Under the pieces are notes generated by a model. The model worked only from the letters and a program-made list of their open reading frames with translations, ran no database searches and had not been told where the DNA came from. From Paracoccaceae bacterium (GTDB lineage Bacteria > Pseudomonadota > Alphaproteobacteria > Rhodobacterales > Rhodobacteraceae), in assembly GCA_027489355.1 (NCBI GenBank), contig JAIXZY010000035.1, positions 1-64,000 of the forward strand: a DNA stretch of 64,000 bases. Direction: 5' to 3'. Position numbers and translations under genes: made by a program. Position 1 is the first letter of the stretch; the number at the start of each line of letters is the position of its first letter. Shown here piece by piece: positions 1 through 55,051 of this stretch.

Positions 1-593
1 ACGGGGACGGCAAGAAGAACCTGTGGAGCGACGACCCGGCGGATGCGCTGGCCTCGACGGCCAACTACCTGCGGTTCTGGGGGTGGAAGAAGGGGATGCC
101 TTGGGGGGTGGAGGTGCGCCTGCCGGAAGGGTTCGACTACGACCAGACGACCGAGCGGGTGGTGAAGCCGGTTTCGGAGTGGCAGGCGATGGGCGTGCGG
201 ACCGTTTTCGGCGCGGACTTGCCCGACCACGGGCCGGGGTCGATCCTGCTGCCGGGCGGCCATCGCGGGGCGGCTTTCCTGATCTGGCCGAACTTCCAGG
301 TCATCGAGAAATACAACACGGCGGACGCCTATGTGGTGGCGATCGGGTCGCTGTCGGACCGGCTGAGGGGCGGACCTGCGATCCAGTCGGGCTGGCCACG
401 CGATCTGCGGGCCTTGACGCTTGACGAGCGGCGGGAGCTGCAGGAGCGACTGACCGGCGCGGGGTTCGATGCGGGCGGGGTCGACGGGCGGATGGGGCCA
501 AAGACGGTGGCGGCGGTGAAGGCCTTCCAGAAGGCGCGCGGGATGGTGCCGGACGGCTATCCCTCGTTGGAGGTGCTGGCGGCACTGCGCTAG
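1..593 (+). CDS. Lytic murein transglycosylase, C-terminal part (5' truncated by window edge)
   Basis: The reading frame is open from base 3 to the TAG at 591-593; the ORF track starts too late, at an internal Met. The visible protein begins in the middle of a transglycosylase domain (LWSDDPADALASTANYL, YLRFWGWKKGMPW), as in MltB-type soluble lytic transglycosylases that cleave peptidoglycan to 1,6-anhydromuropeptides. The last 60 or so residues form a peptidoglycan-binding domain 1 (LQERLTGAGFDAGGVDGRMGPKT...AFQKARG). The SLT core and any signal peptide lie outside the window. A GTCCAC/GTGGACA palindrome begins directly after the stop codon. Confidence 0.88.
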   Translation, partial: GDGKKNLWSDDPADALASTANYLRFWGWKKGMPWGVEVRLPEGFDYDQTTERVVKPVSEWQAMGVRTVFGADLPDHGPGSILLPGGHRGAAFLIWPNFQVIEKYNTADAYVVAIGSLSDRLRGGPAIQSGWPRDLRALTLDERRELQERLTGAGFDAGGVDGRMGPKTVAAVKAFQKARGMVPDGYPSLEVLAALR

Positions 594-652
594 CTGTCCA
601 CGGTGGACAGCCTGTCCAACCGTCTGGAATCAAGGGCTTGGCTGCGGAGATC
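594..652 (+). repeat. Bipartite intergenic element, copy 1 (palindrome + CTTGGCTGCGG)
   Basis: A perfect 17-bp palindrome, CTGTCCAC-G-GTGGACAG (594-610), is followed after 27 nt by CTTGGCTGCGG (637-647). The same arrangement occurs three more times in the window with a spacing of 28 nt. It starts one base after the transglycosylase stop codon. Function is unknown. Confidence 0.55.
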
Positions 653-805
653 AAGGGTTTATTAAGCTTTGGCCGAGGCCGTCCGACCCCGGCGTCTCAC
701 CCCGCTGGGGCGGCTCCTGCATGGATCGCTGACGCGCACGGTTTTTGTCTCGTCGTCGGGCTTCGCCTCCTCCTCGGCTGATGGGGGTTTCACCCCCAAA
801 CCCCA

Positions 806-2309: not shown

Positions 2310-2625
2310 GGGGGCTTTTCGAGGCCGATCCTCGTTCGCCGTCGGCGTCACCTCGCCCGTGTCCACGGTGGACATTTCCGGATTTCCATTTAAGTGCAAC
2401 GGCTTGACTGCGGGCGTTAGGGAGCCGGAAAGGATGTTTCACGAGGCCCGCAGCACCCGAACGTGCGAACAAGGTGGACGTGGCGGCAAGTCCGTGACGG
2501 GGCGGGCCGTGCATCGACCGGACCCGAGGATGGCAGGACGCCCGCTTGCCTCGGCCGAAGTCTGATGACCCCACACGGCGCGCGCGCCCCGGCGAATGGA
2601 TCGCCGGGGAAAAGTGCCGCTTGGG
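2310..2625. other. Intergenic region without a confident gene
   Basis: This 316-bp gap between the SDHAF4 gene and a convergent lipoprotein gene contains bipartite element copy 2 (2360-2414). It also contains an unproven 43-codon ORF at 2434-2565 (ATG to TGA) that resembles nothing I recognise. No tRNA or known small RNA was recognised. Confidence 0.5.
2360..2414 (+). repeat. Bipartite intergenic element, copy 2
   Basis: TGTCCACGGTGGACA at 2360-2374 is followed after exactly 28 nt by CTTGACTGCGGG (2403-2414). It matches copies at 594, 27249 and 53361 in both blocks and in spacing. It lies about 50 bp after the SDHAF4 stop codon. Function is unknown. Confidence 0.6.
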
Positions 2626-25691: not shown

Positions 25692-26582
25692 ATGACCGAA
25701 ATCACCCTTCTCGACGGCGGCATGGGTCAGGAGCTGATCGCCCGTGCCGGCGCGGACCCGGGCCCGCTCTGGGCCACGCGGGTCATGCTCGACCACCCCG
25801 GCCTGGTGCGCCAGATTCATGAAGACTACTTCTCGTCCGGTGCAAGCCTTGCCACCACGAACACCTATAACATCCTGCACGACCGCCTGATCCCGCACGG
25901 GCTGGACAGCCTGTACCACGCGCTGCACCTGCGCGCGCTGGCCGAGGCGCATGAGGCCCGCGCCGCCGCTGGCCGGGGCCTGATCGCCGGATCGATGGGG
26001 CCCCTGGGCGAAAGCTACCGCCCCGACCTGACACCGCCGGTCGAGGTCTCAGCCGCGCTCTATGCCGAGAAGGCGAAGATCATGGCGGCACATGTCGACC
26101 TGATCCTGATCGAGACGATTTCCTCGCTCGACCTCGCGCGCGGCGCGCTGAAAGGGGCGCGCACTACCGATCGGCCCGTCTGGCTGTCCGTCTCGGTCCA
26201 GGACCGTGATGGCACAAGGCTGCGGTCCGGTGAGCCGGTCGCCGCGCTGGCCGAGGTGCTGGCCGAGACGCCCGCCGATGCGGTCCTGGCGAACTGCTCG
26301 ATGCCCGAGGCGATGTCGGCTGCCCTGGACGCGCTGAGGCCGCTGGGCCTGCCATTCGGCGCCTATGCAAATGGTTTCTCCGAGATCACGCCGCACACCC
26401 ACGGCACCAGTGCGCCCGAGTATTGCGCCCGGCACGACCTGACGCCGGAACGCTATGGCGACTTCGCGCTTGGCTGGGTCGAACAAGGGGCGACGCTGAT
26501 CGGCGGCTGCTGCGAGGTGGGTCCGGCGCATATCCGGCACCTCTACAGCCGGTTGCGTGCGGAAGGCCATACGATTGCATAA
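25692..26582 (+). CDS. Homocysteine S-methyltransferase family protein
   Basis: A 296-aa TIM-barrel methyltransferase. The start MTEITLLDGGMGQELIARAG is typical. Zinc-binding cysteines are seen in VLANCSMPEA and in IGGCCEVGPAHI. Members transfer a methyl group from S-methylmethionine or betaine to homocysteine; the donor here is not determinable. Its position after msrC suggests a methionine-salvage context. The following pseudouridine-synthase gene overlaps its 3' end. Confidence 0.88.
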   Translation: MTEITLLDGGMGQELIARAGADPGPLWATRVMLDHPGLVRQIHEDYFSSGASLATTNTYNILHDRLIPHGLDSLYHALHLRALAEAHEARAAAGRGLIAGSMGPLGESYRPDLTPPVEVSAALYAEKAKIMAAHVDLILIETISSLDLARGALKGARTTDRPVWLSVSVQDRDGTRLRSGEPVAALAEVLAETPADAVLANCSMPEAMSAALDALRPLGLPFGAYANGFSEITPHTHGTSAPEYCARHDLTPERYGDFALGWVEQGATLIGGCCEVGPAHIRHLYSRLRAEGHTIA

Positions 26583-27243
26583 GCCGTCGCTCATCCCCGA
26601 CTTTGCCTACGACCCGCCGGACACGCCGCTGTCCATCCTTTACGAGGACCCGGCGATCATCGTCATCGACAAACCCGCGGGCCTGCTGACGGTACCGGGA
26701 AAGCTGGAGAACCGGCAGGATTGCCTGATCACCCGGCTGCAAGCGGTGCGCTGGGATGCGCTGACCGTGCACCGGCTGGATTGCGACACCTCGGGTGTCA
26801 TTATCTTCGCCCGCACCAAGCAGGCGCAGGGATACCTGGGGCAGGAGTTCGAGCAGCGGCGCGCGCAGAAGACCTATGTCGCCCGCCTGAAAGGCGTGCT
26901 GAGGCCGGACAGCGGCACCGTGGACCTGCCGCTTGGCAGCGACTGGGACTACCGGCCGCGGCAGAAGGTCGATCACGACCACGGCCGTCCGGCGGTGACC
27001 GACTGGCAGGTGATCGACCGGACCGAGAGCGAGACCCGCGTCCGCCTGACCCCGCACACCGGCCGGAGCCACCAACTTCGCGTGCATATGCTGGCACTTG
27101 GGCATCCGATCCTGGGCGACCAGATCTATGCGCCCGAAACCCGGGCGAGCCATGAGCGGCTGATGCTGCACGCCGAGAGCCTGGCGCTGCACCATCCCAC
27201 CAGCGGGGACTGGGTCAGCTTTACCGCCCCGGCACCGTTCTGA
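26557..27243 (+). CDS. RluA-family pseudouridine synthase
   Basis: Up to 228 aa. The track start is GTG 26557, inside the preceding gene; TTG 26575 is an in-frame alternative. The catalytic motif is HRLDCDTSGVIIFARTKQAQ. ILYEDPAIIVIDKPAGLLTVPG and TPHTGRSHQLRVHMLALGHPILGDQIY are family blocks. Length without an S4 domain fits RluA, which modifies 23S rRNA U746 and tRNA U32, but the target is inferred only. Confidence 0.9.
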   Translation: MRKAIRLHKPSLIPDFAYDPPDTPLSILYEDPAIIVIDKPAGLLTVPGKLENRQDCLITRLQAVRWDALTVHRLDCDTSGVIIFARTKQAQGYLGQEFEQRRAQKTYVARLKGVLRPDSGTVDLPLGSDWDYRPRQKVDHDHGRPAVTDWQVIDRTESETRVRLTPHTGRSHQLRVHMLALGHPILGDQIYAPETRASHERLMLHAESLALHHPTSGDWVSFTAPAPF

Positions 27244-27248
27244 CCACC

Positions 27249-27295
27249 GTGGACAAATGGGTATTATTACGTAATATCAATAGCTTGATCGCGGG
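27249..27295 (+). repeat. Bipartite intergenic element, copy 3
   Basis: A half-palindrome CCACCGTGGACA (ending 27255) is followed after 28 nt by CTTGATCGCGGG (27284-27295). It starts inside the rluA-type gene's stop region. The 28-nt spacer is AT-rich (GTATTATTACGTAATATC), unlike the other copies. Confidence 0.55.
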
Positions 27296-27331
27296 CGTTT
27301 ACGATCTGTCAAGCTTGGGACAGGCGCAGGC

Positions 27332-27358
27332 GTAGGGTGGGCGTATCGCCCACCCTAC
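27332..27358. repeat. GTAGGGTGGGCG inverted repeat, copy 3
   Basis: Perfect 12-bp arms GTAGGGTGGGCG/CGCCCACCCTAC with TAT at the centre. It sits between two convergent genes, 22 nt from the stop of the ABC substrate-binding protein, and probably terminates both transcripts. Confidence 0.7.
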
Positions 27359-27379
27359 CCCAGGTCCCTTGCGCGGCGA

Positions 27380-44702: not shown

Positions 44703-45536
44703 ATGGCCGGTCGCATCGCCTTTCAGGGGGAACTTGGCGCCTATTCGCACCAGGCCTGCCAGCAGTCGCGCCCCGATTTCGAACCCGTTCCCAGCACCAC
44801 CTTCGAAGAGGTCGTGGACAAGGTTGCCCGGGGCGAGGTCGATCTTGGCATGCTTGCGGTCGAAAATTCGACCTATGGCCGGGTGGCCGACGTTCACTCG
44901 CTTCTGCCCCGCGCCGGGCTGCACATCGTGGACGAAGCCTTCGTCCGCGTGCATGTGAATCTGCTGGGCGTGCCCGGTGCCAGGGTGGAAGACGTGAAGG
45001 AAGCCCACGGCCATGTGGTGATCCTGCCGCAATGCGCGGGCTTCCTGAAGGCGCATGGCATCCAGGGCAAGGTCTCCAGCGACAACGCGCGTGCCGCGCG
45101 CGAGGTGGCCGAGCGCGGGGACACGTCGAAGGCCGCGCTGGCCAGCGAGCTTGCGGCCGAAATCTACGGGCTCACGGTGCTGGCCCGCCACATCGAGGAC
45201 CAGTCGAACAACACCACCCGCTTCCTGGTCATGTCGCGCGAGCCGGACTATCGCCGCCGCGGGCAGGGGAAGATGATCACCACCTTTACCTTCCGCGTCC
45301 GCAACATCCCCGCCGCGCTGTACAAGGCGCTGGGGGGATTCGCCACGAATGGCGTCAACATGACCAAGCTGGAAAGCTACATGGTCGGCGGCAGCTTCAT
45401 GGCGACCGAGTTCTATGCCGACATCGAGGGCCACCCCGAGGACCCGAATGTCGCGCTTGCCCTGGAAGAACTACGCTACTTCACTTCGGAAATGCGGATG
45501 CTGGGCGTCTACCCCGCCGACCGCGAGCGCGGCTAG
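44703..45536 (+). CDS. pheA: Prephenate dehydratase (with ACT domain)
   Basis: A 277-aa monofunctional prephenate dehydratase for phenylalanine synthesis, started at the ATG at 44703. The catalytic domain shows RIAFQGELGAYSHQAC, MLAVENSTYGRVADV and the DQSNNTTRFLVM motif. The C-terminal ACT domain (TTFTFRVRNIPAALYKALGGFATNGVNMTKLESYM) should bind Phe for feedback inhibition. Its stop overlaps the convergent SRPBCC gene by 4 bp. Confidence 0.95.
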   Translation: MAGRIAFQGELGAYSHQACQQSRPDFEPVPSTTFEEVVDKVARGEVDLGMLAVENSTYGRVADVHSLLPRAGLHIVDEAFVRVHVNLLGVPGARVEDVKEAHGHVVILPQCAGFLKAHGIQGKVSSDNARAAREVAERGDTSKAALASELAAEIYGLTVLARHIEDQSNNTTRFLVMSREPDYRRRGQGKMITTFTFRVRNIPAALYKALGGFATNGVNMTKLESYMVGGSFMATEFYADIEGHPEDPNVALALEELRYFTSEMRMLGVYPADRERG

Positions 45537-53295: not shown

Positions 53296-53360
53296 GGGGG
53301 TCTCCGTCTGGTTTGGCGGAGCCTACCGCGCGGCGGCAGGAGCGGCAAGTCTTGCCGCCG

Positions 53361-53413
53361 TCCACACTGGACAGGCGAAGAAGAATGAATGACTCCAAAT
53401 GCTTGGCCGTGGG
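53361..53413 (+). repeat. Bipartite intergenic element, copy 4
   Basis: TCCACACTGGACA (53361-53373), with one base less symmetry than other copies, is followed after 28 nt by CTTGGCCGTGGG (53402-53413). It lies between cycA (downstream end) and the ridA start on the minus strand, so it is not tied to a plus-strand gene end. Confidence 0.5.
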
Positions 53414-53450
53414 TGGCAATGATCGCTTAACCAAGCCGACATCGCAAAGC

Positions 53451-54481: not shown

Positions 54482-54496
54482 TGTCCACTGTGGACA
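54482..54496. repeat. TGTCCACTGTGGACA palindrome (fifth palindrome copy)
   Basis: This imperfectly centred palindrome lies immediately after the DUF4202 stop codon (minus strand). It matches the palindromic part of the bipartite element but lacks the CTTG block at 28 nt on either strand. Confidence 0.45.
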
Positions 54497-54499
54497 GGC

Positions 54500-55051
54500 T
54501 CAGTCCGTGCGGAAGGCCCCGGCCAGCGGCTCCGGCAGATCGAACTCCCGCAGCACCCGGGCGCGGCCCTCTTCGGACATCTTCCGCGCCGTCTTCCGCA
54601 CGATGTCCAGGGTCTGCTCTGCCCCGCGGTCTGCCGCGAAGGGCGAAAAGTACCACGTGAGGAAAACGAAGCAGATCACATCCTCCAGCGCCTGCACCTC
54701 GGCGTCGCGCTTGATCCCCTCCTTGCGCAGCAGGACCCCCACGCGGGCGCAGTCCGCTTCGGGAAAGCCCGCGGCCTCCATGATCCCCGCGACCCGTTCG
54801 GCATGCCGCCGGCCCTGCTCGCGCCGCCAGGCATGATAGCCCTCCTTGCCTTCGGGATAGTCCGACCGCGGGAGAAGCCAGCGTTCCACATGCTGCCCCC
54901 GCGCGGCGACCTGAAGCACCTCGGACGCGCCCGGAAACAGTCGGGCCAGTTCCTCACTCATCCGCTGGCCGTAGATCAGCGCCTCGCCCTTGGGGTCGGC
55001 CGAGTTCGCTTCGTCGATCCTGGCCAGCGCGCGGTGCAGGCGGTCGCTCAT
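54500..55051 (-). CDS. DUF4202 family protein
   Basis: A 183-aa protein matching the DUF4202 pattern: RGQHVERWLLPRSDYPEGKEGYHAWRREQGRRHAERV, then VGVLLRKEGIKRDAEVQALEDVICFVFL and IVRKTARKMSEEG. The conserved His/Glu/Asp residues recall HD-domain hydrolases, so metal-dependent hydrolysis is possible but unproven. It overlaps the Crp/Fnr gene by 4 nt and is surely cotranscribed, which hints at a role in the nitrogen-oxide or low-oxygen response. Confidence 0.85.
   Translation of the reverse strand: MSDRLHRALARIDEANSADPKGEALIYGQRMSEELARLFPGASEVLQVAARGQHVERWLLPRSDYPEGKEGYHAWRREQGRRHAERVAGIMEAAGFPEADCARVGVLLRKEGIKRDAEVQALEDVICFVFLTWYFSPFAADRGAEQTLDIVRKTARKMSEEGRARVLREFDLPEPLAGAFRTD

Follow-up and report, generated by a model that had tools for sequence, protein, structure and literature searches.

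The window, i.e., the whole stretch of 64,000 nt that was analyzed, carries four copies of a three-part element of about 75 bp, which consists of a palindrome (box A), a match to the IHF consensus (box B) and a TTAA-type pair (box C), as well as one box A standing on its own (Table 1), the latter indicating that box A is able to exist or to persist by itself. In one of the copies the element and the preceding gene overlap, as the TGA stop codon of the pseudouridine synthase gene at 26557-27243 makes up the first three bases of the box A at 27241. An earlier note on this DNA had described four copies of a palindrome followed by a second block, the two being 27 nt apart at 594-652 and 28 nt apart at 2360-2414, 27249-27295 and 53361-53413, and these spacings were reproduced; the palindrome or its right half, which the note had seen in all four, is indeed present, with the reservation that the right arm at 53361-53413 is degenerate (CTGGACA). 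The extent given there has to be revised: the palindrome and the second block are both real, but the element runs about 20 bp further to the right, up to CGTTARGGATTTGKYAAC, and its second block corresponds to the 3' end of an IHF-consensus site. Four matches to GTGGACA-N24..32-CTTG are found in the window against 0.16 expected in shuffled sequences; three of these are the previously described copies, and the remaining one, at 44814 with a spacing of 32, was judged to be a chance match. Trained on 40 copies from the genome, a profile of sequence alone (R1) recovers all four window copies with E from 1e-17 to 2e-6, three of them being in or close to the training set and the 53359 copy lying outside it, plus the solo palindrome on the minus strand, which had correctly been noted to come without a second block.

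Table 1. Element copies in the window and the features belonging to them.
Feature	Positions	Strand	Remarks
Gene upstream of the 595..609 copy	96-593		lytic-transglycosylase/PG-binding
Box A TGTCCACGGTGGACA	595..609	+	1 nt past TAG stop 591-593; profile match 594-671, 42.1 bits
Box B, IHF-consensus match AATCAAGGGCTTG	628..640	+	
Box C, diverged (GATCAAGGGTTTATTAAG)	649..666	+	
Box A TGTCCACGGTGGACA	2360..2374	+	profile match 2359-2436, 59.8 bits, E 1.1e-17
Box B, degenerate IHF-like TGCAA-N4-TTG	2394..2406	+	
Box C CGTTAGGGAGCCGGAAAG	2415..2432	+	
Box A TGACCACCGTGGACA	27241..27255	+	profile match 27240-27318, 55 bits
Box B, exact IHF consensus TATCAA-N4-TTG	27275..27287	+	
Box C CGTTTACGATCTGTCAAG	27296..27313	+	
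Box A, degenerate CGTCCACACTGGACA	53359..53373	+	profile match 53359-53433, 24 bits, E 1.7e-6
Box B, degenerate TCCAA-N4-TTG	53393..53405	+	
Box C TGGCAATGATCGCTTAAC	53414..53431	+	
Solo box A	54482..54496	-	a few nt past the stop of the DUF4202 gene 54500-55051 (-); without boxes B and C

The window's Tabrizicola genome (4.2 Mb in 81 contigs, about 4,000 genes, the assembly being about 98% complete) yielded at least about 115 copies to the profile at E below about 0.001, a few partial ones included, and these are dispersed widely over the contigs; all of the element counts per genome are to be read as minimum values. The genome-wide count of the pattern itself is far above chance, with GTGGACA-N27..29-CTTG matching 55 times and its reversed form 3 times, and, as the more permissive GTGGACA-N15..44-CTTG gives 136 matches against 35 for its reversed control, the excess is concentrated at spacings of 27-29. 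The distribution is accordingly narrow, with a sharp peak at N28 (a spacing of exactly 28 in 43 of the 52 distinct genome matches retrieved). That the spacers are unrelated to each other and nevertheless fixed in length, as had been proposed from the window, also holds for the genomic copies, whose A-B spacer is nearly random in sequence.

Box A is the palindrome TGTCCACGGTGGACA almost everywhere in this genome, and box B follows WATCAA-N4-TTR (column consensus RAAATCAAnGRCTTG), with an AT-rich 5' side, as at IHF sites. With WATCAANNNNTTR as the IHF consensus, 24 of 96 copies of box B are exact and 39 more have one mismatch, always at the same position, although the R1 training copies were picked by the GTGGACA...CTTG pattern, which biases the box frequencies at those bases upward here. 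A gene for IHF-alpha is present in the genome (TIGR00987, above the cut-off). Box C, a TTAR-N7-YYAA pair within the block CGTTARGGATTTGKYAAC, is composed of two TTAA-like halves 11 bp apart, and its spacing is that of the full site of CtrA, TTAA-N7-TTAA (PMC6180460). Unlike that site, it is degenerate (TTAG, TCAA and GAAA are common; 2 of 96 copies are exact, 37 have one mismatch and 39 have two), is found where genes end, not at promoters, and is combined with a site of the IHF type. Dyad symmetry of box C was considered and rejected, its pairing being no better than the column composition predicts. Across the 96 copies, columns 51-70 of the element, in the box C region, seem to fall into partly correlated sub-types, GCGGR...ATTTG and TTTTTC...GTGGYG.

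The association with gene ends that the earlier note had remarked upon holds across the genome: box A lies no more than 12 nt from the stop codon of a co-oriented gene in 58 of the 96 copies, most often at 2-3 nt, and about a quarter of the copies have no co-oriented gene ending at box A. According to a simple home-made gene caller, the neighboring genes are convergent in 42 copies, tandem in 45 and divergent in 7, with 2 copies at contig ends. Placement of a promoter type, with a CtrA-like site near -35, does not agree with copies that sit at gene ends and are so seldom between divergent genes, and the polymerase (promoter) site that had been offered as one possibility is unlikely given 7 divergent against 42 convergent copies. 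The upstream genes checked (20, RecQ, EF-P, GAPDH and proline racemase among them) are functionally unrelated, which speaks against a classical functional regulon, while a general terminator is ruled against by the copy number, which would serve only a small share of the gene ends of such a genome.

Fifty foreign copies have a flank that matches an element-bearing stretch of the window's genome, and 38 of them share its place, 36 in the same orientation. In these 36 orthologous pairs, box B is 74% identical, box C 72% and box A 59%, whereas the A-B spacer and the downstream flank are only 37% and 36% identical, respectively (the identities are ungapped, so indels lower the spacer value slightly). 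Conserved boxes B and C within saturated spacers point to purifying selection on spaced binding sites, and not to repeats that are spreading or decaying. For 40 foreign elements, the matched flank is the side of the gene ending at box A alone in 17, the other side alone in 2 and both sides in 21; across species, it is the gene ending at box A that the element appears to accompany, even if this asymmetry could partly be explained by coding sequence being closer on that side. The site after the lytic-transglycosylase gene is without the element in three other genomes (G001, G020 and G022), where the intergenic stretch is shorter, and is occupied by a decaying copy at locus L279.

The element was found in all 31 of the other congeneric (Tabrizicola) genomes searched, and the full profile gave no matches among 29 genomes of other genera. 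A second profile, made from the right half of the element alone (R2), finds it in at least 11 other Rhodobacteraceae genera (11 were inspected by eye) and has no matches in about 237 alphaproteobacterial genomes outside this family, so the matches within the family are unlikely to be noise. Viral contigs contained no matches to two box A types, and matches on Paracoccus plasmids were dismissed, as they share only part of box C and not the element. Box A is uniform within a genome and different between genomes: it is GCGCCGCGCGCGGCGC or TGCCCACGCGTGGACA in G001 and G020, TGTCCCGGGCAGGGACA in G007 and TGTCCACAGTGGACA in G012, and, in other genera, TGTCCCACCGTGGGACA (G342), GCGTCCCACCGTGGGACGC (G231) or GCGTCCGAGCTCGGACGC (G089). 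In G191, which also belongs to another genus, it is nearly non-palindromic (CTTCCCCCTGTGTTACAG), and the near-non-palindromic TTCCCCCTGTGTTACA is conserved in all of the copies seen there (L336, L359, L362, L366, L370, L373, L377 and L381). The distance from the left edge of box A to the ATCAA of box B is nevertheless constant at about 35 nt in the genomes examined, though the length of the palindrome ranges from 15 to 18. Box A seems to change as if it were tracking a co-evolving DNA-binding protein. A broader reading, which is plausible but which we would sooner doubt than accept, is that this is a gene-end site system of the whole family Rhodobacteraceae, in which the specificity of a sequence-specific protein would have been switched repeatedly and about 100 box A sites would have been rewritten in step, with boxes B and C and the positions being kept.

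The closest known kind is the RIB/BIME-1 of E. coli, i.e., REP plus IHF at 3' ends, the relation of which to IHF was reportedly dealt with by Boccard and Prentki in 1993, but its paired-REP feature is missing here. RIB/RIP elements are likewise dispersed, extragenic, of similar length and located where transcription units have their 3' ends; they have a palindrome and an IHF site at a set spacing, to which box A and the putative IHF site in box B would correspond. The IHF site of BIME-1, however, lies between two opposed REPs, whereas the present element has a single palindrome on one side and box C, for which RIB/RIP has no counterpart, on the other; its box A also has no relation to REP and has been rewritten from one species to the next, boxes B and C being retained. 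Species-specific extragenic palindromes near stop codons are shared with the REP/RAYT systems, from which the element differs in having no GTAG-type head, a fixed three-part geometry and conserved orthologous positions. The 155-bp Correia/NEMIS elements of Neisseria (PMC2229807) are intergenic repeats that contain an IHF site, as the present element would, but their copies resemble each other from end to end and are bounded by terminal inverted repeats, unlike an element with unrelated spacers and no terminal repeats. No exact named match was found, in line with the earlier note, nor was any description of the element in the literature on Rhodobacteraceae that the search covered (many subscription papers being outside of it).

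The element is probably a protein landmark that marks gene ends. The bipartite protein site that the earlier note had suggested is supported insofar as the constrained geometry looks like that of a protein-binding site, but there are three parts and one of them is an IHF consensus. The account that we tentatively prefer, while granting it slightly less than an even prospect of being right, is that of an IHF-bent nucleoprotein address on the chromosome, situated at gene 3' ends and acting as a barrier or insulator to read-through polymerase. IHF would bind box B and bend the DNA, and the bend would bring box A, presumably occupied by a lineage-specific and probably dimeric DNA-binding protein, face to face with box C, a putative direct repeat of the OmpR/CtrA type. 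Where the transcription unit ends, the resulting complex would most likely serve as a barrier or insulator and might stop or slow RNA polymerase that has run beyond the stop codon, above all if the neighboring genes are convergent. This role is suggested by the position of the copies, their co-orientation with the upstream gene, the enrichment between convergent genes and the precedent of BIME-1, RIB and REP: IHF interacts with the part of BIME-1 between the REPs and RIBs are located at transcription-unit 3' ends (PMC2817692), while REPs facilitate Rho-dependent termination (PMC2817692; PMC12306157).

The same IHF-bent complex could instead be a site of chromosome architecture or topology that recruits gyrase, SMC or another organizer at gene ends and has no direct role in termination, as proposed for BIMEs; this has a modest chance of being correct, and the IHF and gyrase binding known for RIB/BIME, the functionally unrelated host genes and the wide dispersal over contigs would all agree with it. 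It would, however, leave the tight co-orientation with the upstream gene unexplained, and gyrase cleavage in E. coli is slightly under-represented at IHF sites (PMC6379681). Should box A act in the transcript, it would be a hairpin after the stop codon (an intrinsic terminator, an mRNA 3' stabilizer or a ribosome-staller), with boxes B and C as a loosely coupled DNA feature, which is improbable and still a live rival: short T runs often come after box A in G001, G020, G009 and G029, where it comes closer to intrinsic terminators, its outer arms covary in G004, and ribosomes of E. coli stall at REP hairpins that lie within 15 nt of a stop codon (PMC12306157). In the window's genome, on the other hand, the hairpin is a weak one of about -5.5 kcal/mol, and an intrinsic terminator with a GC-rich hairpin and a T run was rejected there, only 1 of 96 box A copies being terminator-like. 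The outer arms do not covary in G031, the inner R/Y pair is independent, the box A of G191 is hardly a palindrome at all, and the distance from box A to box B is fixed. Among the copies of the window's genome, no RNA structure was found outside box A, the strongest column couplings being between adjacent or near positions, and Rfam covariance models gave no match to the element. A palindrome for a DNA-binding protein is favored over an RNA hairpin by these comparisons.

Two further readings would have the DNA itself recombine or move. The attL site of phage lambda consists of a core, an IHF bend and direct-repeat arm sites, and a palindromic core (5-7 bp between the arms) followed by an IHF site and then by direct repeats with an 11-bp period could, by analogy, be an attachment-like site used by a tyrosine recombinase. 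We regard this as very improbable, since a chromosome with about 100 active sites nearly identical to each other would be scrambled, and only one of the 40 foreign elements with a matched flank, L298 in G001, clearly joins the flanks of two elements of the window's genome (L085 and L082). One rearrangement breakpoint thus appears to coincide with elements, but recombination between copies would be rare, and the idea that it causes rearrangements was abandoned, as hardly any of the non-matching flanks could be placed at a different element locus. The other reading, a degenerate mobile repeat of the REP/MITE kind that inserts after stop codons, had been raised in the earlier note in the form of a mobile element with constrained geometry and is now disfavored as very unlikely. 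The copies are dispersed, extragenic and next to stop codons, and their palindromes are lineage-specific, as in REPs; a mobile repeat or MITE, however, would be expected to show similarity over its whole length and variable positions, and what is seen is selectively conserved boxes at orthologous gene ends, no terminal repeats and saturated spacers that are not copy-like. A Y1/RAYT transposase (PF01797) was also not matched in the window's genome, the E. coli control being positive.

If the barrier or insulator reading is right, the gene ends of a large bacterial family would bear a protein landmark of their own, in three parts, which annotation passes over, and IHF-type bending would be tied in a testable way to where transcription units end, a question of long standing for the RIB/BIME of E. 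coli. A natural experiment would also be at hand, with the same sites, about 100 of them, in the same places and a recognition palindrome that differs per lineage, which gives a way to seek the cognate protein and to ask how specificity and all of the sites change together; were the switching of specificity true, this would be a genome-wide system of protein-DNA co-evolution.

Other repeats are found close to the element. A GTAGGGTGGGC...GCCCACCCTAC hairpin at 27330-27360 of the window, which resembles the RAYT-type REPs of PMC2817692, yet in a genome in which no Y1 transposase was found, also adjoins other copies of the element (L045). Positions 707-835 contain another repeat, dispersed over intergenic regions and about 110 bp long, with a GGGGGTTTCACCCCC hairpin and AGGATATTTGG; it has many copies in the window's genome and in relatives of the genus.
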